A stretch of 63,247 nucleotides of DNA. Origin: Verrucomicrobiota bacterium (GTDB lineage: Bacteria; Verrucomicrobiota; Verrucomicrobiia; Limisphaerales; J093). Shown here in pieces: positions 519 through 19,758 of this stretch. Made by a program: the position numbers and the translations under genes. The notes beneath the pieces are model-generated. The model saw nothing but the letters and a program-made list of their open reading frames with translations. It had not been told where the DNA came from and did not search any database. The DNA is taken from assembly GCA_022710935.1 (NCBI GenBank), contig JAKLFY010000036.1, positions 1 to 63,247 of the forward strand. Direction: 5' to 3'. Within the stretch, counting starts at the first letter, position 1. Every line of letters starts with the position of its first letter.

Positions 519-2582
519 ATGAAGACAACGCTTCCGATACTTCTGCTGCTTGGCTGCCTGACGGCAGCAGTTCTTGCCCAATCTCCGGCGCCGACGCGCA
601 CGATTACCTTCGTGTCGGTGGGTGACTCGGTCGCCTCCGGGGAAGGAAACCCGGATATTCCAGCAGTGGTCAGACCGAATTTGGATTACAACCCCGTCCA
701 GCACCTACCCAACCCCAAGTACGATCCCCGCAAAAAGACTCCCAACTCCGATTACCATCCCTTCGAGACACTGCCCAACGCCAACTACGACCCGTTTGAA
801 TGGGTAATCAACCCACACTACCAGCCGTTTCCAGTGCCAGCGGCGCTTCTCAACGTGCTCCCTGGTTTTCCTCCCTATGATCCGAACTTGACTATCAAGA
901 ACCCCACGTATGATCCCAGAATGGTCGTTCCTAATCCTGACTTCGATCCCAACCCGTTGGTGGAGAATCCGAACTACGACCCGAACTTGTGGTCGGTTGA
1001 GTTAAACGTCAACTATCTTACTAACCTGTATCTCGTGGAAGAGGCGGCCACTTGGGCGGAAAAGAAGGACCACCGCTCCAACCTCGCCGGCCCGGCTCTG
1101 GCGGCGGCTGAGTTAAAAGCACGTTACCCGAATGCCGACCTCGCCTTTGTGCACCTCGCTAAGTCGGGTGCCAAGACAGACGACCCGGCGGAACCTGACT
1201 ATTCCGTTATCAATCAGATCCAGAAGGCCAAGACTCATCCCATCGTGAAGGACGCAGGGCGCATCGACATTCTGACCATTTCAGTCGGGGGAAACGATGT
1301 GCATCCAGACGGATTTGGAGGATTGATCACGGCCTGTGGGGAATCCATTCGAACGGGCGTCCTGCCCTCGGAAGACGCCGAACTGAACGCCGATGTCCAG
1401 GAAGGCCTTGCTGAGTTGCCTGACAAGCTAGACCGGTTGGCGGACGCTATCGGCTCCGCTCATGTGGGACAGGTGTTCATAACCGAGTACTTCGATCCAA
1501 CGCGGGACAGTGAGGGGTTCTTCTGCTTGGGCGAGACGGAATGGGCTTACGACCAAATCGTAGTGCCGCTCAATGCAGCGCTGAAATCCGCCGCCCTCCG
1601 CCACGGTTGGCACTACGTTGGGGGCATAGCTGAGCGCTTTCGCACCCACGGCCACTGCGCCGCTCATCTGCCCGATCCTAGAAAAGTGATTCTGAATCCC
1701 CATTACGATCCGCTCGAACGGTTGCCCAACCCGGATTACAATCCAATTCAACGCTTGCCAAACCCTAAGTACAACCCGATCAAGGACGTGCCTAACTTCA
1801 AGTACAATCCAGTCAAAGACAAGCCGAACCTCAACTACAACCCGTTCGAGACCATCCCAAACCCCAACTACAACCCAATAGAGCAGATTCCGAACCCTAA
1901 CTACAATCCGCTCGAGAACATTCCGAACCCGGCGTATCAGCCATTCCCCTGGCGTCCTAAGTACGATAAGCGACTGACGATCCCAAATCCGGATTACGAT
2001 CCGAATCTACTCATTCCCAATCCTGCCTACGACGGACGTCTCACCTTGCCGAATCCAAAGTATAGTCCGGAGCTGACGGTGCCAAACCCAGCTTATAACC
2101 CAGCGCTGACGCTGCCCAACCCCGACTATGATCCGGAACTGACGCTGCCCAACCCCGACTATGATCCGGACCTCACCATTCCGAATCCTGACTTCGAATT
2201 CGGACCGGTGGTCGGAGACAACTGGGTGGTGCGGTTTGAAGAGTCAATTGTGATCCAGGGAGATTGGGATGGTACGGCCCATCCTAACGCTCAAGGGCAC
2301 GCGATCTATCGCGACCGCCTGGTTGAAGAGATCAACCGTTTCGTAGACTTTTGGCCTGCTCCGCGGATTGCCCAGATCACCGCCTCAGAGTCCACCGTTC
2401 GCCTCCTGATCGAGAACCAGTATCCAGTGGAGCGGATCGAAATCCAGAGAACGCCTGTTGTCTCCGACCCGGAGTGGGTTGCGGTCGACTGCAACCCGAT
2501 CGTCCTGGAAAACGGGCTGTGCGAAGCGACGGTCACTCGGACAGGCGCCTCGATCGAGTTCTTCCGGCTCTTGGTGAAGTAG
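519..2582 (+). CDS. Secreted SGNH/GDSL hydrolase interrupted by two arrays of an 11-residue Asn-Pro-Tyr repeat
   Basis: A 687-residue protein with a Sec signal peptide (about 1-20, ending in Ala-Gln). The SGNH esterase/lipase blocks are visible: GDS with candidate nucleophile Ser37, the GGND oxyanion block at 257-260, and the C-terminal Asp/His block with His588 followed by Pro-Asn. The catalytic domain is split by low-complexity arrays at residues ~53-160 and ~386-560, built from an 11-residue unit with consensus N-P-x-Y-[ND]-P-x-x-x-[LIV]-P. Residues ~611-687 form a short beta-type module ending in Phe-Phe-Arg, as in many verrucomicrobial secreted proteins. The likely role is extracytoplasmic ester hydrolysis; the substrate is unknown. 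The gene stands alone between two direct repeats. The family is clear from the blocks; the repeat insertions are not something I recognise from SGNH enzymes. Confidence 0.85.
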   Translation: MKTTLPILLLLGCLTAAVLAQSPAPTRTITFVSVGDSVASGEGNPDIPAVVRPNLDYNPVQHLPNPKYDPRKKTPNSDYHPFETLPNANYDPFEWVINPHYQPFPVPAALLNVLPGFPPYDPNLTIKNPTYDPRMVVPNPDFDPNPLVENPNYDPNLWSVELNVNYLTNLYLVEEAATWAEKKDHRSNLAGPALAAAELKARYPNADLAFVHLAKSGAKTDDPAEPDYSVINQIQKAKTHPIVKDAGRIDILTISVGGNDVHPDGFGGLITACGESIRTGVLPSEDAELNADVQEGLAELPDKLDRLADAIGSAHVGQVFITEYFDPTRDSEGFFCLGETEWAYDQIVVPLNAALKSAALRHGWHYVGGIAERFRTHGHCAAHLPDPRKVILNPHYDPLERLPNPDYNPIQRLPNPKYNPIKDVPNFKYNPVKDKPNLNYNPFETIPNPNYNPIEQIPNPNYNPLENIPNPAYQPFPWRPKYDKRLTIPNPDYDPNLLIPNPAYDGRLTLPNPKYSPELTVPNPAYNPALTLPNPDYDPELTLPNPDYDPDLTIPNPDFEFGPVVGDNWVVRFEESIVIQGDWDGTAHPNAQGHAIYRDRLVEEINRFVDFWPAPRIAQITASESTVRLLIENQYPVERIEIQRTPVVSDPEWVAVDCNPIVLENGLCEATVTRTGASIEFFRLLVK
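675..995 (+). repeat. Coding 33-bp repeat array 1 in the SGNH gene
   Basis: Encodes residues ~53-159. Four units of the form x-x-Y-[ND]-P-x-x-x-x-P are followed by a turn segment containing Tyr-Gln-Pro-Phe-Pro (101-105) and a proline-rich linker. Four further units follow, whose motif shifts towards Y-D-P-N-L-T. The DNA units are diverged, so this is an old array rather than a recent slippage product. Confidence 0.8.
1674..2198 (+). repeat. Coding 33-bp repeat array 2 in the SGNH gene
   Basis: Encodes residues ~386-560. Seven units with consensus NPxYNPxxx[LIV]P lead to the same Tyr-Gln-Pro-Phe-Pro turn (473-477). Seven units with consensus NPxYDPxLT[LIV]P follow, then a partial unit (N-P-D-F). 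The only near-identical DNA neighbours are the last two complete units (about 2116-2181). Confidence 0.85.
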
Positions 2583-2766
2583 GACTGCGGGATGGAAGAG
2601 CCCCCAGTCTGCTGGTGGCGGTCCCTCGCGCGACGGTCGAGCACAAAGGGGCCGCCTCGGCAGCGCGGCGCAACCGCAGCCGACGCCAAGGAGTCCGCGT
2701 AGACGTTCTGCCCGAAGCACACGCCGGTCGCCGCGCCTGCCGAGAGGGGCGTCAAGGCACCTTGTT

Positions 2767-3021
2767 TCAGGGCAGGAGAACCTCGACCGCTCGATAGAAC
2801 CGTTTCGCCCCGGCGAGGGATGTCGGGTCGATCACGGTGAATAGACTCGCAGGCAGGATGATAGTGGTGACGGTGACCCAGTCGGCGCCGCCGACAGCCA
2901 GGGAGGATGCGATCCGATACTGACGGCCCGGTGTCCCCTCGAGCTTGATGCCGGCATACGTGGCGAGGTCCACAGTCGGCGCCGGCACGCTGGACGTGGC
3001 CACGGTGCCGAAGGCGTCCAA
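2767..3021 (-). pseudogene. 3'-terminal remnant of a secreted verrucomicrobial protein
   Basis: An open stretch of about 84 codons with no convincing start. It reads as a C-terminal module: a Gly-rich Tyr-Arg-Ile segment, a central Trp-Val, an Asp-Pro, and an ending in Arg-Phe-Tyr-Arg-Ala-Val. The same kind of module closes the RCC1 protein at 13.9 kb. Upstream sequence on this strand does not continue any domain I can name. It is probably the tail of a larger gene that has been lost. Between 2583 and 3175 I see nothing else coding. Confidence 0.45.
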
Positions 3022-3175
3022 CTGGTGGTCGGGTACGGCACGAACTCCGCACGGAACTCTCGGGCGGTTACCTGAGGCAGGTCCGTGACTGTGAACTCAG
3101 CCCGCCCGAAGACACTGGTCTCGCCAAGGCAAGCGACTCTGGATTAACGGTTTGGAGCGATGGTAGACCCGGCCG

Positions 3176-3593
3176 GGGGCCTTAGCCGCACTTTTCGGTC
3201 CAGGAAAGTCGCGGTAAGTAACTGATCTGGTGCCTGGCGCAGCATCCCGGCATCCGCCTGTGCCTCGAAGGTCTCCAACTCGTGTAACGTCGAGATCACG
3301 CAAGGGTCCTTTTCGCACGTCGATTGACGCAATTCGCCCGTGGCACGGCGAATCTGTCTGCAGGACTTGTGGCGTTGCTGAACCGATAGGCCGATTCTCC
3401 CTGCTGGGTGCGGGTTTCATAGAACCGGAAATCTCACCCATGGACCGTCAGGAATGCCGGGACCGCCCCACTGGTGAGATTTCCGGGTTAGAGCCGATTC
3501 TAGCGGCCGAAAAGCGGCTCTAAGTGTCATTCGCGACCACTCCACCGGTCTTATCTCCTTCCGATACAACGAGTTCCTTTGGCGAGACCAGGG
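3176..3593. repeat. Direct repeat, copy 2 (right of SGNH gene), carrying an inserted palindromic element
   Basis: Second copy of the 127-434 repeat. Relative to copy 1 it contains about 110 extra bases at roughly 3380-3490, which include the palindromic element at 3423-3490. Sequence on both sides of the extra bases matches copy 1. Confidence 0.75.
3423..3490. repeat. Palindromic element, TAACCCG-type family
   Basis: The left arm CCGGAAATCTCACC (3425-3438) is the exact inverse of GGTGAGATTTCCGG (3473-3486), and the right end is CGGGTTA. At 68 bases it matches the size and end sequence of the elements at 29158, 39211, 42671 and 57849. It lies within the segment of direct-repeat copy 2 that is missing from copy 1. 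Confidence 0.7.
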
Positions 3594-3633
3594 TGACCAA
3601 CGCTCTTCTCGCCGATGCGACAATGAGGCAACG

Positions 3634-6600
3634 TCACGCCTTGTTTGCGGGAAGCGGGGGCGGGCTCTTCGGCTTTCGCGCGAGGGCTTTCCAGCAGCCG
3701 CCCGTGCTGAACTGCATCCAGGTCCATCGCAGCCATCGGATGAGCGCCGCGGCGAGCCAGAGGGCCCAGGCCAGCATCAGCAGCCGGTAGAACCAGACGG
3801 ACACCGACACGACGACTGGCAGGGGCAGTTCGGTTCCGCTGCGCGGCTGGAACCAACGCAGCTCGACCCGCGACGAACCGTTCCCGCGAATGAACATCTC
3901 GGGGTTGCCGAGAAGCCCCTCGCTCACCACGGCTACGAGGATGCCCAACGCCGCCAGTGTGAGACCCACCAGCAACACCTGCAGCAGGTTGAACTTCCAC
4001 GCTGCGATCCCGCTCCCTCGTTGCCCACGCCAGGCAACAAGGAAGAACCAGCCTACCACCGTCAGCGCGGCAGCCAGGTGAATCTGCGTCAGGCCGAGTG
4101 CGAGAAGCATCCACTGCAGTCGGGTCACCGGCGAGAGTCTCAGTCCGCCCAAGACCCACGCCGCGAGAAGAGAGACGGCCAGCACGGTCCAGAACCGCAC
4201 CGCCGGGCCGCGCAAGGGTCCGGACACCCAGAGCACCCAGCGACTCTCGGGCACACGGATCGCGGTGGTGATGTTCGCCGCCTCGACCGGCAACTTCACG
4301 GTCCCGGCCACCGCCTTGGTCTCCAGCGGCTGATTGGATCGCCACTCGAGGTTCAACGTCTGGCTGCCCGGATGCACCGGCACCATCAGCTTCGCTCCCT
4401 CGCGCCGGACCGGAACCGAACGGTCGTCCTGTTTGAGCGAGGACACCTCCGCCTTCGGGTCCAGTTCGAGGATGAAATCGTCGCCCAGGCTGGCCTCGAC
4501 ATCGAGGGTGAGTTGCGATGTGCGCTGGCGGCTGCCCAGCGCGATGTCGTGCCTCACGCGCCGCACGGTGATGGTGTCGCCGCTCATCGCCTCAGGTTTG
4601 CTGAATGAAAGGGCAACGCTTTCACCCGGCCACGGATGCCAGACGGGCACCAGGTTGCGCTCGCTGGTTTCGAACACGGGCGCGAGGCCTGAAAGCGATA
4701 CGTTCCATACCGGCGAGGTCACCAGGTGCCAGCGCTCGATCCAGCGATCGGTCTTGGCCGCAGTCAGCTCGATAGGTCTGCCGATCGGCAATTCGCTTTC
4801 CCAGGCAAACTCGGCTTCCCCGGCGCCCAGGCGCACCTCCACGATTCCGTCCTGCACGATGACTCCCGGCGAGAGCACCTTTTCGCCCGCGAGCAGCGGG
4901 ACGCGCAGCGAGACCGCCTTGCCTGTCTGGGCCAAACGGGTGACCACGGTGCGCGCCTGCCAGATCAACCCGACCTCCAGGTGACGTTCCACCGCCACGA
5001 TGGCGTTGAAATCCCGGCGATCGTACTCCGCTTCGCCTGCGGCAGCCTGGCGCTGGCGGGCAAAGAAAACCTGGTTCTCCGGAATGCCATTCGGGCGCAC
5101 CCCCGTGACCGTCCAGCCGGGGGCGTCAATGGCGACGCGGCGCGGTTTCAACAGGAACGTCCATTCCCATTCCGTAGCGCTGGGAAGGAGCCCTTCCACG
5201 ACGACGCGATGGACACCCGCGGGCGCGACGACCCACAAGTAGCCATCATCCCGGCGCAAGACTGCCTCCGGCTTGTCATCCAATTGGACGGACACAGGCG
5301 ACCACGAGGGCAGTTTGCCCGGCAGGGGCACGGCCACCTGCGCCGCCGCATGGATCTCGGCCGTCATGGTGATCCTGCCATCGGTGACGCTCAGATCCAC
5401 AGTCGGGATTTCCGCGGCGCGCGGATAGGCGTCTGAAGTCTCGATCAGGCGGTCGCGCAGCGTGTTCAGCGTCTCCTTGTCCGGCAGTTGGGCCAGGGAC
5501 GAGGTCGGCACGCACAGCGCCAACAGCAGAGCCGCCGCGGCCCCCGCGCCTGTGGCTTTGCCCGGGCCGCCGGCAACCGGTTTCCAACCGCGCCGGCGCA
5601 ACAGCAGGCCGCCAAGCGCCAACAGCAACGCCACGCGCAGAACCGTCAGGACGCGATGCACGGTGGTGGAGATGAGAACGGGGCGGATGGTCTCATCGGC
5701 CGACACGGGGCCGTTCCAACCGCAGCGGACCAGGTTCCAATTCCATTCCGGCTCGGCGGGGCCGGTCTGGATCTTGGCCTTGGATTCATAGCGCAGGTTG
5801 GATTCGAGTCCATAGCGCGCCACCCGTTTTCCAATCGACGGCACTCCCAATTCCTCCGCCCGCGCGGTCTGGAGCGCCTCGGCGGCTGGCGGCGGCGCGG
5901 CCCACTGGGGCGCCGGACGATACGCGCGCCAGCCAAAGAGCGGGTGCGAGCCGTAGCTGTAGCCCTGCCGTTCGAGCTGAGGATACATGACGCTCTGAAG
6001 CTGACTGGCGACGAATGGCACGAGACCGAACAGCAACAGCGCAACGGCAAGCCACTGCCATGCCATGATCCCCTTGCGCACGCCGCCTTCCGGCACCACA
6101 CGCAACAGCGCCAGCGGCAGCAGCAGAAAGAGCCACGCCAGCCGGGGTGCGCCCGGCTCGTGATACCCGAGGCCGAAGGCCAGGAACGCCACCAGCCCCG
6201 CTTTCCAGCCCCACAACTTGAACACGGCCAGCGTGAAGATCAGCAGCAGGAACAGGTCGAGCAGTGTCCACGCCGTCAGCCAGTCGCCCTCGACCCAGTC
6301 CGCGCCGAATAGCGCCAACAACCGCCAGCCCGGCGGCAGATTCATCGAGACGTCAAGCCCGTCCGCGGGCGCCCGCCAGCCCGTAGCCGGGATCGCTTTC
6401 ATCCGATCCGAACGCCCGATGGCCTGGAGGTCCAGGTTCCGAGTGCGAATCTCGACGCCTGGGGCGCCGTTGGCCGGGTTGACGGTGATCAACTGAGGCT
6501 GTCCCCCCATCTTCGCGGCGCCGAGTTTCTGGCCAGCCGCGACATCGAGCCGCCAAATCTGCTGCATCGTTCCATGGATCTGATCGCGGAACGTCAATCC

Positions 6601-7701
6601 ACTGCCATCCTCGTCCAGCCAGAATACGCGGCTGATCTTCAACCCTTCCGGCCGTTGCAGTCCCATCCCCCGCATCCTCTCCACCAGCCGGAACGCCCGG
6701 TCGGTCGGCCATTGATACACCGGCAGGCTCCGCCATTTCTGCGGAAAGGCTGTCTGCGAAACGTCCACCACCTGGATGCCATCGAGCTCGGCCATGCGAA
6801 ACTCCGGTGCAGCCCGAAAGCCGACCAACTCCGTCGCCACAATCGGTTGCGCGCCTTGCGCGAACCTAATCTCACCCGCGTCGGTCGTGCGAAACGCGTC
6901 CACGCGAATGGTCCATTTGCCCGCCCGCACCTGCGCCTTCATGCGACCCTGATCGTCCACGGCCACCGGCACCGGCGCGTCCACCGACGCGATGCTCCAT
7001 CCCTCGGGCACGATGTGGCCCAGGTCCTCCTCGCGGCTCTTGCCCGACACGCTCAGCTCGAGTTCCGTGCGCAGCCAGAGCGGAATCCCATCCTCGATGA
7101 CCCGCCAGACCTGGGCGGCAACCGTGTCCTTGTCCGTGGCCTCGAGACGGACACGTTTGAGCCAGAGGTCGCCGGCCTCGTCCCAGTTGGGGAGTTCGAC
7201 TTTCTTGCCTTCGAGGACGAGTGAAAGCAGACCCACCTCGCGCGGCACGCGGATCAGTTGGGGCATTTCAGTCTCCCAGCGGAACGCGCCTGTGATGTGG
7301 CGACGCCCTGGTTCGAGCTCGATGCAGGGCCGGCTCTCGTGCTCCACGACGGCCATCGGCGTGCCGTCCGCGCGCACCTCGAGCGGCCAGGCATCGCCGC
7401 CCCCCGGCAGCGGCACCCAGGTCCGGCTGAATACGGCCACACTCAATTCCCACGTTGCGGATTTCTGATCCGCCGCCAAGGACAGCGCGCCGGGCCAAAA
7501 ACAGACGCGTCGGGCCGCGTCATTGAACGGCGTCGGGCAATCGCGCTGCTTGACGTCCCAGGTCGCCCAGTCCTGCCACTCCTTGAGCGGCGCGGGGATC
7601 TGGCGCCCGGTCAGTTCCTGGGCGTTGCCCGAATCGATTGCGCCGCAGGCGGCGCACCAGACGGTCAGCAAGGTGACTGCTTTCATGGGAAGTGTTGACA
7701 T
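3634..7701 (-). CDS. Very large membrane protein of unknown function (1355 aa)
   Basis: Begins with a signal peptide (about residues 1-28). A long periplasmic-type beta-rich region (~30-470) is followed by a cluster of hydrophobic segments at about 477-566. Two more lie near 684-701 and 715-730, the second resembling an internal signal/anchor. A second extracytoplasmic region follows (~735-1165), and at least four hydrophobic helices lie in the last 190 residues. The tail is basic and proline-rich. No enzymatic motif is visible. The two-part layout (soluble, membrane, soluble, membrane) suggests an envelope or surface-assembly protein, but that is a guess. It is not in an obvious operon: decayed DNA lies upstream and repeats lie downstream. 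Two in-frame Met codons (7701 and 7686) could be the start. Confidence 0.75.
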   Translation of the reverse strand: MSTLPMKAVTLLTVWCAACGAIDSGNAQELTGRQIPAPLKEWQDWATWDVKQRDCPTPFNDAARRVCFWPGALSLAADQKSATWELSVAVFSRTWVPLPGGGDAWPLEVRADGTPMAVVEHESRPCIELEPGRRHITGAFRWETEMPQLIRVPREVGLLSLVLEGKKVELPNWDEAGDLWLKRVRLEATDKDTVAAQVWRVIEDGIPLWLRTELELSVSGKSREEDLGHIVPEGWSIASVDAPVPVAVDDQGRMKAQVRAGKWTIRVDAFRTTDAGEIRFAQGAQPIVATELVGFRAAPEFRMAELDGIQVVDVSQTAFPQKWRSLPVYQWPTDRAFRLVERMRGMGLQRPEGLKISRVFWLDEDGSGLTFRDQIHGTMQQIWRLDVAAGQKLGAAKMGGQPQLITVNPANGAPGVEIRTRNLDLQAIGRSDRMKAIPATGWRAPADGLDVSMNLPPGWRLLALFGADWVEGDWLTAWTLLDLFLLLIFTLAVFKLWGWKAGLVAFLAFGLGYHEPGAPRLAWLFLLLPLALLRVVPEGGVRKGIMAWQWLAVALLLFGLVPFVASQLQSVMYPQLERQGYSYGSHPLFGWRAYRPAPQWAAPPPAAEALQTARAEELGVPSIGKRVARYGLESNLRYESKAKIQTGPAEPEWNWNLVRCGWNGPVSADETIRPVLISTTVHRVLTVLRVALLLALGGLLLRRRGWKPVAGGPGKATGAGAAAALLLALCVPTSSLAQLPDKETLNTLRDRLIETSDAYPRAAEIPTVDLSVTDGRITMTAEIHAAAQVAVPLPGKLPSWSPVSVQLDDKPEAVLRRDDGYLWVVAPAGVHRVVVEGLLPSATEWEWTFLLKPRRVAIDAPGWTVTGVRPNGIPENQVFFARQRQAAAGEAEYDRRDFNAIVAVERHLEVGLIWQARTVVTRLAQTGKAVSLRVPLLAGEKVLSPGVIVQDGIVEVRLGAGEAEFAWESELPIGRPIELTAAKTDRWIERWHLVTSPVWNVSLSGLAPVFETSERNLVPVWHPWPGESVALSFSKPEAMSGDTITVRRVRHDIALGSRQRTSQLTLDVEASLGDDFILELDPKAEVSSLKQDDRSVPVRREGAKLMVPVHPGSQTLNLEWRSNQPLETKAVAGTVKLPVEAANITTAIRVPESRWVLWVSGPLRGPAVRFWTVLAVSLLAAWVLGGLRLSPVTRLQWMLLALGLTQIHLAAALTVVGWFFLVAWRGQRGSGIAAWKFNLLQVLLVGLTLAALGILVAVVSEGLLGNPEMFIRGNGSSRVELRWFQPRSGTELPLPVVVSVSVWFYRLLMLAWALWLAAALIRWLRWTWMQFSTGGCWKALARKPKSPPPLPANKA

Positions 7702-13932: not shown

Positions 13933-16900
13933 TCAGGGCAGCGGCAGCAGGGTGCGGTAGAAGCGTTGCGAGCCTCCCGAAACCGGCGGCGTCCAGGGCT
14001 CGTCGTTGCGCAGGTTCGTGATGGCGGTGGCAGTCCAGCCAGGCCCGTTCAAGCGGTCGGAATACTGCAAGGTGTGAGGGGTGTAGGGCTCGCCGAACAG
14101 AACGAGCCACAGCGAATTGGTTTCGGTCCACAGCTCCAGTGACGGCGGCGGCGTGGTCGTCCAAGCGTCGCGCAGCAGGTTCAGCAGCCGCGATGTGTGG
14201 CTGACCAGGCGTGGAATCTCAGGCTGACCGGTTGCCTGAATATCCCGAAGACACTCGTCCAAGCGTGTCGCAAAGCAACTCAAGCGTGGCCAGACCACCT
14301 CTTCGAGCATCAAAGGCCGGGCGTCAGGTAGGGTGGACAGGCGGTTGGTCTCGGACGAAAACAGGCCTCTCGCGATTTCAAGGTCCGGCAGGGCCTCCGC
14401 GCCATACAAGAACCCATGCAACACGTCATCCCGTTCCAGAGTGTACGGCATCCCCAACTCGAGCACGGCCTGGATCAGCGCCTTGCTGCCGGACAGTTCC
14501 ACGGCTTTGGCATTCAGATCGCCGCTCATGGCCAGTTCCGCCAGAAGGTCGGTATTCACCGCCTTGAACCAGTGCTTTGTGATGAGCGCGGGCACATCCG
14601 CCAGGACGAACTCGAGGTCGTTGTCTCCGCTGCCACCGGTCACACCTTCAGCCGTCAGGAACACGCTGTGGCGGCCGCCCGCCGCCAGGGCTACCACGTT
14701 GCCCAAGCCTGGCGGCAGGTCGGTCTGGCCGTCGGAATTGCGGCCCCAGGCCACGACGGTGCCGTCGGCCTTGAGCGCCAGGCTATGGTCTTTGCGCGCG
14801 GAAATGGCCACGACGCCGCTTCTTGCCGCCTCCGGCACGCTGGTTTGGCCATAACCATTCCAGCCCCAGGCCTTCACTTCGCCTGTGGATAGCAGAGCGA
14901 GGCTGTGGTTTTCGCCCGCGGCGATAGCGACGACTCCGGAGAGCCAGGAAGCACTGGTCTGTCCGGCGGTGTTGGCGCCCCACGCCACGACGGAGCCATC
15001 GGCCTTGAGAGCAAGGCTATGTTGGCCACCCCCAGCAACTGCCACCACGTTGTTCAGTCCGGCAGGCACGCTGGTTTGTCGCGCGTCGTTGCGGCCCCAC
15101 GCCCGCACAGTCCCGTCGTTCTTGAGGGCGACGCTGTGCCCTCCGCCAGCCGCGATGGCCGCGACGTCCTTGAGGGCATCGGCAGGCACGGTTGCCTGCC
15201 CGCAGACGTTCCACCCCCAGGCTGCAACTGAACCATCGTGCCTGAGGGCTAGGTTGTGCGCTTGGCCCGCGGCAACATCCACCACATTGCTGAGACCCGC
15301 CGGCACCTGGCATTGCCCCAGGCGGTTGACCCCCCAGGCGAACACCGTGCCGTCCCGGCGCAGCGCCAGGCCATGAGCATCGCCGGCGACGATTCTGGTG
15401 GCTTCCGCGGCGAGTTGGCTGATGCCTGGCCCCGGCCCATCATCGAAACTCCAATGCGCCACGAGGCCAGGTTCCGTGCCGCTCAGCCGATTCGTCATGT
15501 TCGCTGCGATCTCTGCCTGGCTGCACGCCCTGGCCCAGATTTGGACCTCATCCAGGAGGCCATCGAAGAAGCGGGCGCTGTTGTCACCCAGCGTCACGCT
15601 CGGCCCGATCGTGACGTTCCGACCCGTGGCGTCCCAAGAACCCGCGGTCACCCCGTCGATAAAGTAGCTCACCTGCCGGCTGGGGCTGACACAGACGGCG
15701 ATGTGCGTCCACTGGTTGAGCGGCACCGGGATCGTGCCCAGAACGCCATTGAACTCGCCGCACCGGCCCAACTCGAGATACTGTGGGGCGGAGACGCCTG
15801 GCGCGCTGTGAATCAGCACCTCCGCGGACGTGGAACACTCGGTGGCGCTCAGCACGGCCGCCCGTAGCCCCTCATAGGTGCCGCCCGCGCGCAGGAACAC
15901 CCAGGCGCTGACGGTGTAATCGCTCGCAAGGGCGGGGATGGTGGCGGCAACGTAATCACTGACTCCATCAAAGGAGAGCGCGGCAGAATTCGCGTGGGAG
16001 CCGAGAGCGGGCGCGCCCGTCGTCCAGTATGGGCCACCGAACAAACGGCCAGCCGGTTGGCTCGAAACGGTGTTCGTGGCCGTGAGGACGGTGGAATTGA
16101 CGAACGCCACCGGGCCCTGCCACTCGAACAGGACAGCCGGCACGGTGGTTTGGCCACTGGAGTTCACGCCCCAACCCACCACCGTGCCGTCGGCTTTGAG
16201 CGCCAGGCTGTCATCGTTGCCGGCGGCAATCGCCACCACGTCATGATTCCAAGCGGCGGGCATGGTGGTTGCGCCGCGGTAGTTGTTTCCCCAGCCGACC
16301 ACCGTACCGTCGGCCTTGAGTGCGAGGCTATGGTCGTTACCCGCGGCAATCGCCACCACGTCACCATTCTCAGCGGCCGGCATGGTGGTTTGGCCGCTGG
16401 AGTTGTCTCCCCAGCCGACCACCGTACCGTCGGCCTTGAGTGCGAGGCTGTGGTAGCTACTTGCACCGGCGGCAATCGCCACCACGCCGTTCAGCGGTTG
16501 ACCGCTGATCGTGACTGGCCCGGGCGGGCCATTCTCCACCCCTGTGGCCTGACTCCAGGCGTTGTAGCCCCAGCCGACCACCGTGCCGTCAGTTTTCAGT
16601 GCCAGGCTGTGGTCGCCTCCTGCAGCAATCGCGACTACGCCGTTCAGCGGCTGACCGTTGATCGTGACTGGTCCTGGCGGACCGCCAGCCACTCCGGTGG
16701 CCCGCCCCGAGTCGTTGGCCCCCCACCCCATGACCGTGCCATCCGCCTTCAGCGCCAGACTGTGCCAGACGCCCGCTGCGATGGCTACCACGTCATGCAA
16801 CCCAGACGGAGGCGTCGCCTGACCGTAGTGAGGATGTCCCGAGGTGCCCGGTGTACCCGCGCCCCAGCCGACGATCGTGCCATCGGCCTTCAACGCCAGA

Positions 16901-19758
16901 CTGTGGATACTCCCCGCCGCGAGAGCCACCATGTTCCGCACCCCGAATGGAACGGTGGCCTGCCCATAGCCCGGAGATCCCGGGGAACCTGCGCCCCAGC
17001 CAAGAACGGTGCCGTTGGCTATGAGCGCGAGACTGTGGTGGCTACCGGCAAATATCGCGACCGCTCCCTTGGGCGGAGTGCCCGAGGGCGCGACCGCCTG
17101 GCCATCATAGTTGGCGCCCCAGCCCATAATCGTGCCATCGGTCTTCAACGCGAGACTGTGCGCCTTGCCCGCCGCAATGGCGGCCACGCCGTCCAAACCG
17201 ACTGGAATCGAAGCCTGACCCCAAGGGTCATTCCCCCAGGCCGCGACCGTGCCATCCGTTTTCAGCGCCAGAGCGTGCTCGAAGTCGGCGGCTATTGCCA
17301 CCACGCCACTCAGCCCGCCAGGAACGCCGATAGCCCCCAAAGGCACCACGGTGCCACTTTCCTTGAGAGCCAAACTGAAGTTCCCGCCTGCGGCAATCGC
17401 AACGACGTTGCTGCCCGCGAGAGCCCCATTCGCCTGGCCAGACTCGTTGCGCCCCCAGCCTGCAACCGTGCCGTCGGCCCGCAGCGCCAGGCACTGACCG
17501 TAGCCGCTCGCAACGGCAACCACGTTGCTCAGCCCAGTGGGGACGTTGGTCTGGCCGAGGGAGTTGTCACCCCACGCCACGACCGTGCCGTCGGCAATGA
17601 CGGCCAGGCTGTTGGTCGCGCCCGCGGCAATGGCCATCGCGTTGGTCAACCCGGACGGGACGCTGGCCTCGCCCTGGGAGTCAAAGCCCCAGGCCAAGAT
17701 GGTGCCGTCGGCCCGCAACGCCAGGCTGTGCTTCTCTCCCGCGGAAATGGCCACCGCGTTGGTCAGTCCGGAGGGGACGGCGGCCTGACCGGAGAAGTTC
17801 ATTCCCCAGCCCACCACGGTGCCGTCCCTTTTGAGCGCCAGACTGTGCCAACCGCCCGCCACAACCGTCACGACGTCATCCAGCGGCACCGGCAGCAGCG
17901 TGGTCCTGGCCGTGGAGACACGAGGTGCACTCGTTGCCCAATCGCGCCAGGTCTCCAAGGGAAAACGACTCAGAAGTTGGTCGGCGCATTGTTGTTCCGT
18001 GGTCTGCACCTGGCTGACGAACCGGTCCAACTTGGCCGAGTAATTCGTGAGCAGCGCGCCGTACAATGACCGGTTGATGTTCGTGCCCGTGCCGCTGAAG
18101 GTCAGGTTGCGAACGAAGTCCGTGAGGTCGCGGCCCTTGCTGATGAGGCCCTCCAGGCGGCTGGGATATCCCATGGATCGCTCATACTTGCGGAACCAGC
18201 CGGGGTTCTCGAGCGCAAGCTGGAGCCAGGCGCCGGCGCCCGCGCTCCAGTCCTGAGGGTTAACCAGTACCGGCTGGGCCTGAAATTCCTGGCGCCCCAG
18301 CCTCTCCCGCAGGCACTTCTTGAGGTAATTGAGCGTCTCGGCATAGACGTTCGTCGCGCCTGCCGGGGAGATCTGGTAGTACAAGTCGGCGTCTGAGAAG
18401 GGCAACGTCTCGCAGCGGGCGAGGGTCTCGCTGGCCGCCCGGTTGTAGGCGTGAGTATAGAAGACGTTCTCGATGCCCACGTAGCTCGGATTGTAGAGAT
18501 CGTAGGCCAGCGGCGTGCCCACCCGCGCTTCGTAACCGAGCGCCAGATTCATGTTCTCCAGCAAGTCAAACCGCCAGTCCAAGGCGTGAAAGGTGGCCAG
18601 GTTGCGCTCGAGGCGGACCAGGTCAGTCTGGATATCGAGCAGCGAGTGGCGGATTTGCCCCACGTCGCCGACCAGACGGGCAATCTGTCGCCCCTGCGCA
18701 TCGAGGGTGATCTCGATCTGGTCGAACCGCGCGTTGAGCGTGTCGAAGATCTGGGTGAGCGACTGATCCACGCGATCGAAGCGGTAGTTCATGTTCGTGC
18801 TCAGATCGCCGATCAGGGTCTTGATGTTGCCGATCTCACGCGCGATTTCCTCTTCGGGGGATTCGCCGCCGGCGAAAAGGTCCAGGAGTTCGAGGCCGCC
18901 CGCGAGCATGTTCCCCGAAGCGGCGATCCGCGCGAGCTTCGTGGCATCCTTCTCGGCGAAGGCGGCCAGGCCATCGGTCATCATGTGCAGGCCCTGCACC
19001 ACACCCTGCATTTGGCCGGGCAACTTGATCAAAGGATCCTTGGCCTCCAGGAGTTTGGACTGGACCAGAACCGCCGCGGTGGCTGCCGCGATTTTGCGTG
19101 ACTGCCCTTGTTGCACGGCAGCGATGCGTTGGGCGTCGGTTTCGAGGGCTGGCTGGTTGGTCAAGTAGGCCAGCAAGTCAGGCTCGCGCCGGTTGATCTC
19201 CAGTTGCAGCGCCAGATTCGTGTGAATGGTGTCCCAAAACGTCTGCGTCTCGCCGGAGAACAGGTTCACCAATTGGTTGCTGGAGACGGTGAGGCTGCCA
19301 TCCCCGCTCGCCAGGCTGAGTGCCAGCAGGTTCGTCATGGTCGGGTTGGCGCACAACGGCGAGTTGGTGGTGGCGATGATCTCCGACGGACTGGCGTCCA
19401 GCGACACGAGCGTTTCCGGCCAGAGCAGTGCGTCCATGGCGGTACGGAAAAGGGCGTTCCTCCAGGCCCGGGCGGTGCAGACGTCCAGTAGCGCCTGACG
19501 TTTCACCCATTCGCCCTCGGACCCGAGCAGGCGCTGACTGCCGGAGTGGATCATGTCCGCCTGCGGTTCCTCGATCGGGGCTTGAGCACGCGTGACCAGG
19601 GAGTTGAGCAAGCTGAGGTTTGCCAGGGCGAAGTTCGTGCGCGCGGGCACCTGACGCAACGCGTCGAGATAGGCGGCGAGGACTTCATCACGGGACCCGG
19701 TGCTCCGGAGAAGGCTCGGCGCATCGGTGCGATAGCGGGCAGTGGCCTGCCGCAACAC
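13933..19758 (-). CDS. Giant secreted RCC1-repeat/LamG protein (main open frame, cut from its signal peptide by an in-frame TGA)
   Basis: An open frame of 1941 codons. Residues ~1-620 are mostly helical with a predicted coiled coil near residues 330-390 (alternating Asp/Arg/Leu/Gln heptads). From ~627 come 14 RCC1-type repeats of the form VVAIAAG-x-x-HSLALK-x-DGTVVGWG. A LamG/concanavalin-type domain (~1210-1445) follows, then seven more RCC1 repeats and a C-terminal helical region. The protein closes with the verrucomicrobial Arg-Phe-Tyr-Arg module. RCC1 repeats fold as seven-bladed propellers, so the count suggests two propellers, LamG, then a third. The first codon here is TTG and has no signal peptide. 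The same frame continues upstream through one TGA into a perfect signal peptide (see 19795-20004). Likely a cell-surface adhesion or binding protein if expressed. Confidence 0.8.
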   Translation of the reverse strand: MLRQATARYRTDAPSLLRSTGSRDEVLAAYLDALRQVPARTNFALANLSLLNSLVTRAQAPIEEPQADMIHSGSQRLLGSEGEWVKRQALLDVCTARAWRNALFRTAMDALLWPETLVSLDASPSEIIATTNSPLCANPTMTNLLALSLASGDGSLTVSSNQLVNLFSGETQTFWDTIHTNLALQLEINRREPDLLAYLTNQPALETDAQRIAAVQQGQSRKIAAATAAVLVQSKLLEAKDPLIKLPGQMQGVVQGLHMMTDGLAAFAEKDATKLARIAASGNMLAGGLELLDLFAGGESPEEEIAREIGNIKTLIGDLSTNMNYRFDRVDQSLTQIFDTLNARFDQIEITLDAQGRQIARLVGDVGQIRHSLLDIQTDLVRLERNLATFHALDWRFDLLENMNLALGYEARVGTPLAYDLYNPSYVGIENVFYTHAYNRAASETLARCETLPFSDADLYYQISPAGATNVYAETLNYLKKCLRERLGRQEFQAQPVLVNPQDWSAGAGAWLQLALENPGWFRKYERSMGYPSRLEGLISKGRDLTDFVRNLTFSGTGTNINRSLYGALLTNYSAKLDRFVSQVQTTEQQCADQLLSRFPLETWRDWATSAPRVSTARTTLLPVPLDDVVTVVAGGWHSLALKRDGTVVGWGMNFSGQAAVPSGLTNAVAISAGEKHSLALRADGTILAWGFDSQGEASVPSGLTNAMAIAAGATNSLAVIADGTVVAWGDNSLGQTNVPTGLSNVVAVASGYGQCLALRADGTVAGWGRNESGQANGALAGSNVVAIAAGGNFSLALKESGTVVPLGAIGVPGGLSGVVAIAADFEHALALKTDGTVAAWGNDPWGQASIPVGLDGVAAIAAGKAHSLALKTDGTIMGWGANYDGQAVAPSGTPPKGAVAIFAGSHHSLALIANGTVLGWGAGSPGSPGYGQATVPFGVRNMVALAAGSIHSLALKADGTIVGWGAGTPGTSGHPHYGQATPPSGLHDVVAIAAGVWHSLALKADGTVMGWGANDSGRATGVAGGPPGPVTINGQPLNGVVAIAAGGDHSLALKTDGTVVGWGYNAWSQATGVENGPPGPVTISGQPLNGVVAIAAGASSYHSLALKADGTVVGWGDNSSGQTTMPAAENGDVVAIAAGNDHSLALKADGTVVGWGNNYRGATTMPAAWNHDVVAIAAGNDDSLALKADGTVVGWGVNSSGQTTVPAVLFEWQGPVAFVNSTVLTATNTVSSQPAGRLFGGPYWTTGAPALGSHANSAALSFDGVSDYVAATIPALASDYTVSAWVFLRAGGTYEGLRAAVLSATECSTSAEVLIHSAPGVSAPQYLELGRCGEFNGVLGTIPVPLNQWTHIAVCVSPSRQVSYFIDGVTAGSWDATGRNVTIGPSVTLGDNSARFFDGLLDEVQIWARACSQAEIAANMTNRLSGTEPGLVAHWSFDDGPGPGISQLAAEATRIVAGDAHGLALRRDGTVFAWGVNRLGQCQVPAGLSNVVDVAAGQAHNLALRHDGSVAAWGWNVCGQATVPADALKDVAAIAAGGGHSVALKNDGTVRAWGRNDARQTSVPAGLNNVVAVAGGGQHSLALKADGSVVAWGANTAGQTSASWLSGVVAIAAGENHSLALLSTGEVKAWGWNGYGQTSVPEAARSGVVAISARKDHSLALKADGTVVAWGRNSDGQTDLPPGLGNVVALAAGGRHSVFLTAEGVTGGSGDNDLEFVLADVPALITKHWFKAVNTDLLAELAMSGDLNAKAVELSGSKALIQAVLELGMPYTLERDDVLHGFLYGAEALPDLEIARGLFSSETNRLSTLPDARPLMLEEVVWPRLSCFATRLDECLRDIQATGQPEIPRLVSHTSRLLNLLRDAWTTTPPPSLELWTETNSLWLVLFGEPYTPHTLQYSDRLNGPGWTATAITNLRNDEPWTPPVSGGSQRFYRTLLPLP

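Follow-up and report, generated by a model that had tools for sequence, protein, structure and literature searches.

A secreted SGNH hydrolase interrupted by two arrays of an 11-residue repeat that may form out-and-back arms at its active site

Why does a secreted hydrolase carry two long arrays of a short repeat within its catalytic domain, and what form might these arrays take? The question is raised by an open reading frame at 519..2582 (+) of the window, the whole stretch of 63,247 nucleotides that was analyzed (contig JAKLFY010000036.1, Verrucomicrobiota bacterium). The ORF encodes a protein of 687 amino acids, a secreted SGNH hydrolase interrupted by two repeat arrays, with the following features.

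519..578 (+): apparent Sec signal peptide, residues 1-20, MKTTLPILLLLGCLTAAVLA, from reading of the sequence
600..656 (+): core block I, GDSVASGEGNPD, with catalytic Ser37; near- or fully invariant columns (42 sequences), pLDDT over 90
678..809 (+): array 1 outgoing leg, 4 units, residues 54-97; unit positions and leg motifs
810..866 (+): array 1 turn segment, NPHYQPFPVPAALLNVLPG, residues 98-116; unit positions
867..998 (+): array 1 return leg, 4 units, residues 117-160; unit positions and leg motifs
999..1667 (+): middle core, residues 161-383, with W179, HRS185-187, SG217, GGND with Asn259, and Cys380; conserved columns, SGNH fold
1668..1694 (+): array 2 partial outgoing unit, residues 384-392, HLPDPRKVIL region; sequence
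1695..1925 (+): array 2 outgoing leg, 7 units, residues 393-469; unit positions and leg motifs
1926..1958 (+): array 2 turn, NPAYQPFPWRP, residues 470-480; unit positions
1959..2183 (+): array 2 return leg, 7 units, residues 481-555; unit positions and leg motifs
2184..2216 (+): array 2 partial return unit, NPDFEFGPVVG, residues 556-566; unit positions
2217..2333 (+): core block V, DNW...GTAHPNAQGH, with catalytic His588, residues 567-605; conserved columns, model
2349..2579 (+): C-terminal segment, residues 611-687, mostly modeled at low confidence; model and comparison with same-order proteins

The C-terminal segment of about 75 residues ended in EFFRLLVK, which resembled the C-termini of proteins from the same order (FYQVVAE, FYRVVVE). 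Adjoining the hydrolase, a 1355-residue ORF (window 3634-7701, minus strand) matched nothing in Pfam at E 0.1. The window also contains, at 16136-17826, several tandem repeats whose periods are 117-153 bases.

The SGNH hydrolase core proposed by the sequence-only reading was borne out by conserved catalytic residues and a confidently modeled fold. Among 42 sequences, Ser37 (GDS, block I), Gly217 (block II), Asn259 (GGND, block III) and His588 (block V) were found in invariant or near-invariant columns, and the core was modeled by AlphaFold2 (42 sequences) as an alpha/beta/alpha SGNH fold at pLDDT over 90. The top matches of the model core in VIA-align were 5mal (Z 27.0) and 1esc and 4hyq (both Z 26.3), and the same three structures were found by profile search with E values of 2.5e-12 to 6e-9. 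The scores for both GDSL families of Pfam were below cut-off (PF13472, 30.1 bits vs 32.9; PF00657, 19.2 vs 23.6), probably because the domain is split by the arrays; the relative L017 was slightly under the cut-off as well (32.1), and the curated cut-off is a convenience and not a defining trait of the SGNH/GDSL superfamily. By profile and modeled fold, the closest solved structures were those of the Streptomyces lipase, phospholipase A1 and SsEst-like group. A trait of this group is a Ser-His dyad that lacks a catalytic Asp; in the sequence of the window protein, an Asp is located four residues before His588 (DGTAH). In the Streptomyces rimosus lipase SrL, three residues are essential (Ser10, Asn82 and His216), and the substrate site includes Lys28 and Glu212, which contact each other (PMC10779480). 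The equivalents of Ser10, Asn82 and His216 in the window protein were Ser37, Asn259 and His588, respectively.

In the profile alignment, SrL Lys28 fell at the downstream end of site 1, where array 1 is inserted (KRS in SrL, HRS here), and Glu212 fell just N-terminal to the His, by a few residues, on the downstream side of site 2, where array 2 is inserted. This placement by alignment indicates that both arrays emerge at the active-site rim, and their points of insertion fall in what appear to be loops beside the substrate site. Among the best 80 of 269 related loci in genome_contigs, many had only 9-16 residues at site 1, and site 2 was as short as 4 residues. The two ends of each array must therefore lie close together and the chain must leave and return; from this topology we infer that exit and return both take place at the catalytic rim.

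Long site-1 inserts were found in two relatives, with 167 residues in L002 (same order) and 182 residues in L032. The L032 insert was modeled as a helix at 170-223 (54 residues), a low-confidence tip, and a helix at 277-336 (60 residues) with pLDDT of approximately 70-86, so the model predicts an antiparallel two-helix arm at the same site as array 1, differently built. The L032 protein is encoded at 2972-4987 and has cysteines in the tip region of its helical insert. The SGNH protein of L002/L017 is encoded at 2776-5253, with a site-1 insert that is predominantly helical (by inspection for L002). No sequence similarity was found on alignment between the helical inserts of L002 and L032. In the core tree these two relatives were sisters (91/88) and the window protein was placed on a long, uncertain branch; a single origin of the site-1 arms in all three proteins was neither supported nor rejected (AU p 0.26). 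Alphaproteobacterial members, e.g., L057, L084 and L041, carried a site-2 insert of 40-57 residues containing Pro-Tyr-[ND]-Pro stretches without the array. Outside this branch, site-2 inserts of 36-60 residues with Pro-Tyr-[ND]-Pro or Tyr-x-x-Tyr were seen in L041, L045, L054, L057 and L084 directly before a conserved RW. In L016 (3041-5656, minus strand, same order), a related SGNH domain was fused to a PI-PLC X domain, and a second ORF adjoining this fusion (1503-3506, minus strand) contained a similar PI-PLC-like stretch.

Both arrays consist of the 11-residue unit N-P-x-Y-[ND]-P-x-x-x-[LIV]-P. In array 1, just after the Ser block, outgoing units started at residues 54, 65, 76 and 87, followed by the turn unit NPHYQPFP at residue 98 plus PVPAALLNVLPG, and return units started at residues 117 (FPPYDPNLTIK), 128, 139 and 150. 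In array 2, just before the His block, outgoing units started at residues 393, 404, 415, 426, 437, 448 and 459, followed by the turn NPAYQPFPWRP at residue 470, and return units started at residues 481 (KYDKRLTIP), 490, 501, 512, 523, 534 and 545, with partial units at both ends (LPDPRKVIL before and NPDFEF after). These positions confirm the earlier description of two arrays that cut the catalytic domain after the Ser block and before the His block, each with an outgoing leg that runs to Tyr-Gln-Pro-Phe-Pro and with matched legs of 4 and 4 units in block 1 and 7 and 7 units in block 2, a match that consists of two cases within one protein. The Tyr-to-Tyr spacing across the turn was 19 residues in block 1 and 9 residues in block 2, not 11. 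At the DNA level, a degenerate pattern for two successive units had 2 matches in the window compared to 0 in 100 shuffles. Immediately before array 1 (window 642-680, residues 42-54) lies the conserved core motif GNPDIP, which resembles a unit start, N-P-D-x-x-P; judged from this likeness, array 1 might have grown out of the core motif.

The two legs of each array differed in sequence. Position 7 was hydrophobic (I/L/V/F) in 10 of 11 outgoing units compared to 0 of 11 return units (Fisher p 3e-5), and E, K or Q occupied position 8 in all 11 outgoing units compared to none of the 11 return units (Fisher p 3e-6), where Leu was present instead in 9. The leg-specific motifs were common to both blocks, and each array changed its motif at its turn. 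Thus the change of motif that had been noted for the return legs holds at positions 7 and 8, but the full Y-D-P-x-L-T consensus that had been given for it was present only in a minority of return units.

Third codon positions differed by approximately 0.58-0.62 between units, whether these belonged to the same leg, to the same leg type or to neither. Between units, dN was 0.23-0.54 and dS was high to saturated; for shifted legs, dN was 0.23 compared to a dS of 2.9 (saturated). The DNA units are old. The third-position divergence together with dN below dS fits selection on the protein, and does not fit an assembly error or slippage of recent date. Repeats in tandem close to the end of a contig, for which no repeat-bearing homologue was found, could in principle be a recent, functionless product of slippage or assembly, but third codon positions have diverged strongly between units while the encoded residues were kept, the reading frame stays open over its whole length and the core is conserved, so that such an origin is largely refuted and is very improbable.

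The sequence-only reading had suggested that each block may form an antiparallel hairpin arm with register-matched legs, to be recognized by paired strands in a structure prediction. When the full protein was modeled with AlphaFold2, no strands or any other secondary structure were found in either array and pLDDT was about 29-46, so the expected paired strands did not appear. A pLDDT this low is expected for disorder and equally for a repeat without homologues in the alignment; the model therefore says nothing on pairing, and the legs are neither shown nor refuted as paired. The tetrapeptides N-P-x-Y and [ND]-P-x-x are turn-prone. The arrays contained 23-25% proline, and the three prolines and two Asn/Asp-Pro turn signatures in each 11-residue unit argue against a plain, regular beta-hairpin. 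If the legs pack, they probably do so as a string of double turns rather than as two long strands. The out-and-back topology of the hairpin arms is supported by the closure of both sites by short loops in relatives, the two-helix arm modeled at site 1 of L032 lends indirect support, and arms of this kind are plausible.

Support for legs that face each other in register came from their charges. With the legs in mirrored pairing, the charges at positions 7-9 were most complementary in register zero, the best of seven registers (permutation p 0.02, post hoc), and parallel pairing brought like charges together. Including positions 10-11 gave p 0.002 and positions 3-5 had the opposite sign, again post hoc, and charge pairing over whole units between the mirrored legs was not significant (p 0.17). 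Because the positions were chosen after the sequences had been seen, the mirrored-charge result is only a hint. A residue-level scan put first, in array 1, a register that departs from the symmetric one by no more than one residue; in array 2 such a register had the top raw score and was third when normalized. Taken together, these findings give moderate support to legs that face each other in register.

It is possible, though not the reading we favor, that the arrays are long, mostly unpaired Pro/Tyr-rich loops that form a flexible or turn-spiral brush round the active site, the halves differing through duplication of an ancestral array with two unit types and the equal numbers being a coincidence. 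The low pLDDT and lack of modeled secondary structure agree with this, as do the proline content and the two turn signatures per unit, and the outgoing units of block 1 and block 2 corresponded in order (order test p 0.045), as expected after duplication; no such correspondence was found for the return units of the two blocks (p 0.83). However, purifying selection at the unit level, the sharp leg-specific positions kept in both blocks, equal legs in spite of different block sizes and the mirrored charges are all against unpaired loops, and the pLDDT would also be expected of repeats that lack homologues in the alignment. It is unlikely that each array is instead a compact repeat module, such as a solenoid or a stacked double-turn domain, that covers the active site as a cap or as a surface for binding, and not a two-legged arm. 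The strict 11-residue period, with Tyr, Pro and aliphatic residues regularly placed, and the selection on the protein would suit such a module, but a single solenoid leaves the switch of motif at the midpoint and the equal legs unexplained, and both ends of the array must come back to the same place.

Searches for the repeat elsewhere gave no homologue bearing it in 97 relatives or in 320 genomes of the order, 384 of the class (array query) and 388 of the phylum, and there was no second occurrence in its own genome. None was found in IMG/VR with two array DNA patterns, or by full-protein peptide-pattern scans of viral_contigs and of genome_contigs, the latter by exact peptide patterns only. 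No Pfam family matched the arrays, and the literature searched by motif gave nothing relevant. A literature search for hairpin or repeat insertions in SGNH enzymes likewise returned no match, in agreement with the earlier statement that no SGNH enzyme is known to have been described with arms of this kind. Several other matches were rejected: those in Zymomonas plasmid and phage sequences were a 33-base DNA repeat antisense to an annotated gene, that in genome G267 was a low-complexity repeat, the resemblance of array 2 to PDB structures (a leucine-rich repeat protein, CotA and a fibre protein) was weak and compositional, and an NCBIfam PspC match was far under cut-off.

The explanation that we favor, at a probability of roughly 0.4, is that of an SGNH ester hydrolase with two out-and-back repeat arms at its active site. 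The protein would be a secreted serine ester hydrolase; its modeled core is like those of the S. rimosus lipase, the Streptomyces albidoflavus phospholipase A1 and the Streptomyces scabies esterase, and the arrays interrupt two loops, both of which flank the active site. Each array would leave the core along one leg of 11-residue units, turn at Tyr-Gln-Pro-Phe-Pro, and return along another leg packed against the outgoing one, so that two arms, a shorter one of 4+4 units and a longer one of 7+7, would stand next to the substrate site. As a guess, the arms could grip a lipid or polyester substrate that is large or insoluble, or recruit it to the enzyme, or they could control entry to the site. 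The predicted activity is hydrolysis of a carboxylester or a phospholipid, by analogy with the Streptomyces relatives and the PI-PLC X fusion in L016, which are the only hints to the substrate. It is doubtful that N-P-x-Y-[ND]-P units represent a fold element of a new kind, whose two chemically different legs zip antiparallel in register into two rigid, length-tunable, tweezer-like arms flanking the catalytic site. If the legs pair, the enzyme would have at two places on one rim an arm made of repeats, with the equal number of units in its legs determining how long it is, a natural and countable design for arms projecting from a catalytic domain.

Short Pro-rich, Tyr-bearing tandem units with turn signatures are known from the RNA polymerase II tail heptads and from gluten and mussel adhesive repeats; these have another unit, are not inserted in an enzyme and do not switch between outgoing and return legs, and no homology is claimed. 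The secreted S. rimosus lipase SrL (5mal), S. albidoflavus phospholipase A1 (4hyq) and S. scabies esterase (1esc) share with the window protein the core fold (Z 26-27), the Ser/Gly/Asn/His residues, the HRS/KRS element and the block order. In contrast to the window protein, SrL and the phospholipase have short loops at both insertion sites, and none of the three enzymes has repeat arrays. Within the same SGNH subfamily, L057, L084 and L041 have Pro-Tyr-[ND]-Pro at site 2 but neither a tandem repeat nor mirrored legs. The L002/G053 protein (825 aa, same order) and the L032 protein (671 aa, Gammaproteobacteria), the latter modeled as out, tip and back, also belong to this subfamily and have long site-1 inserts, which are helical and not NPxY repeats, and no site-2 insert. 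Long inserts of unrelated kinds are thus accommodated by one loop of this subfamily, a modeled helical hairpin in L032 and a repeat array in the window protein, which points to the active-site rim as the place where substrate handling evolves. The enzyme superfamily is a known one and long site-1 inserts occur in relatives; repeat arrays at both sites with matched legs were seen neither in the other genomes searched nor in the literature searched by motif.
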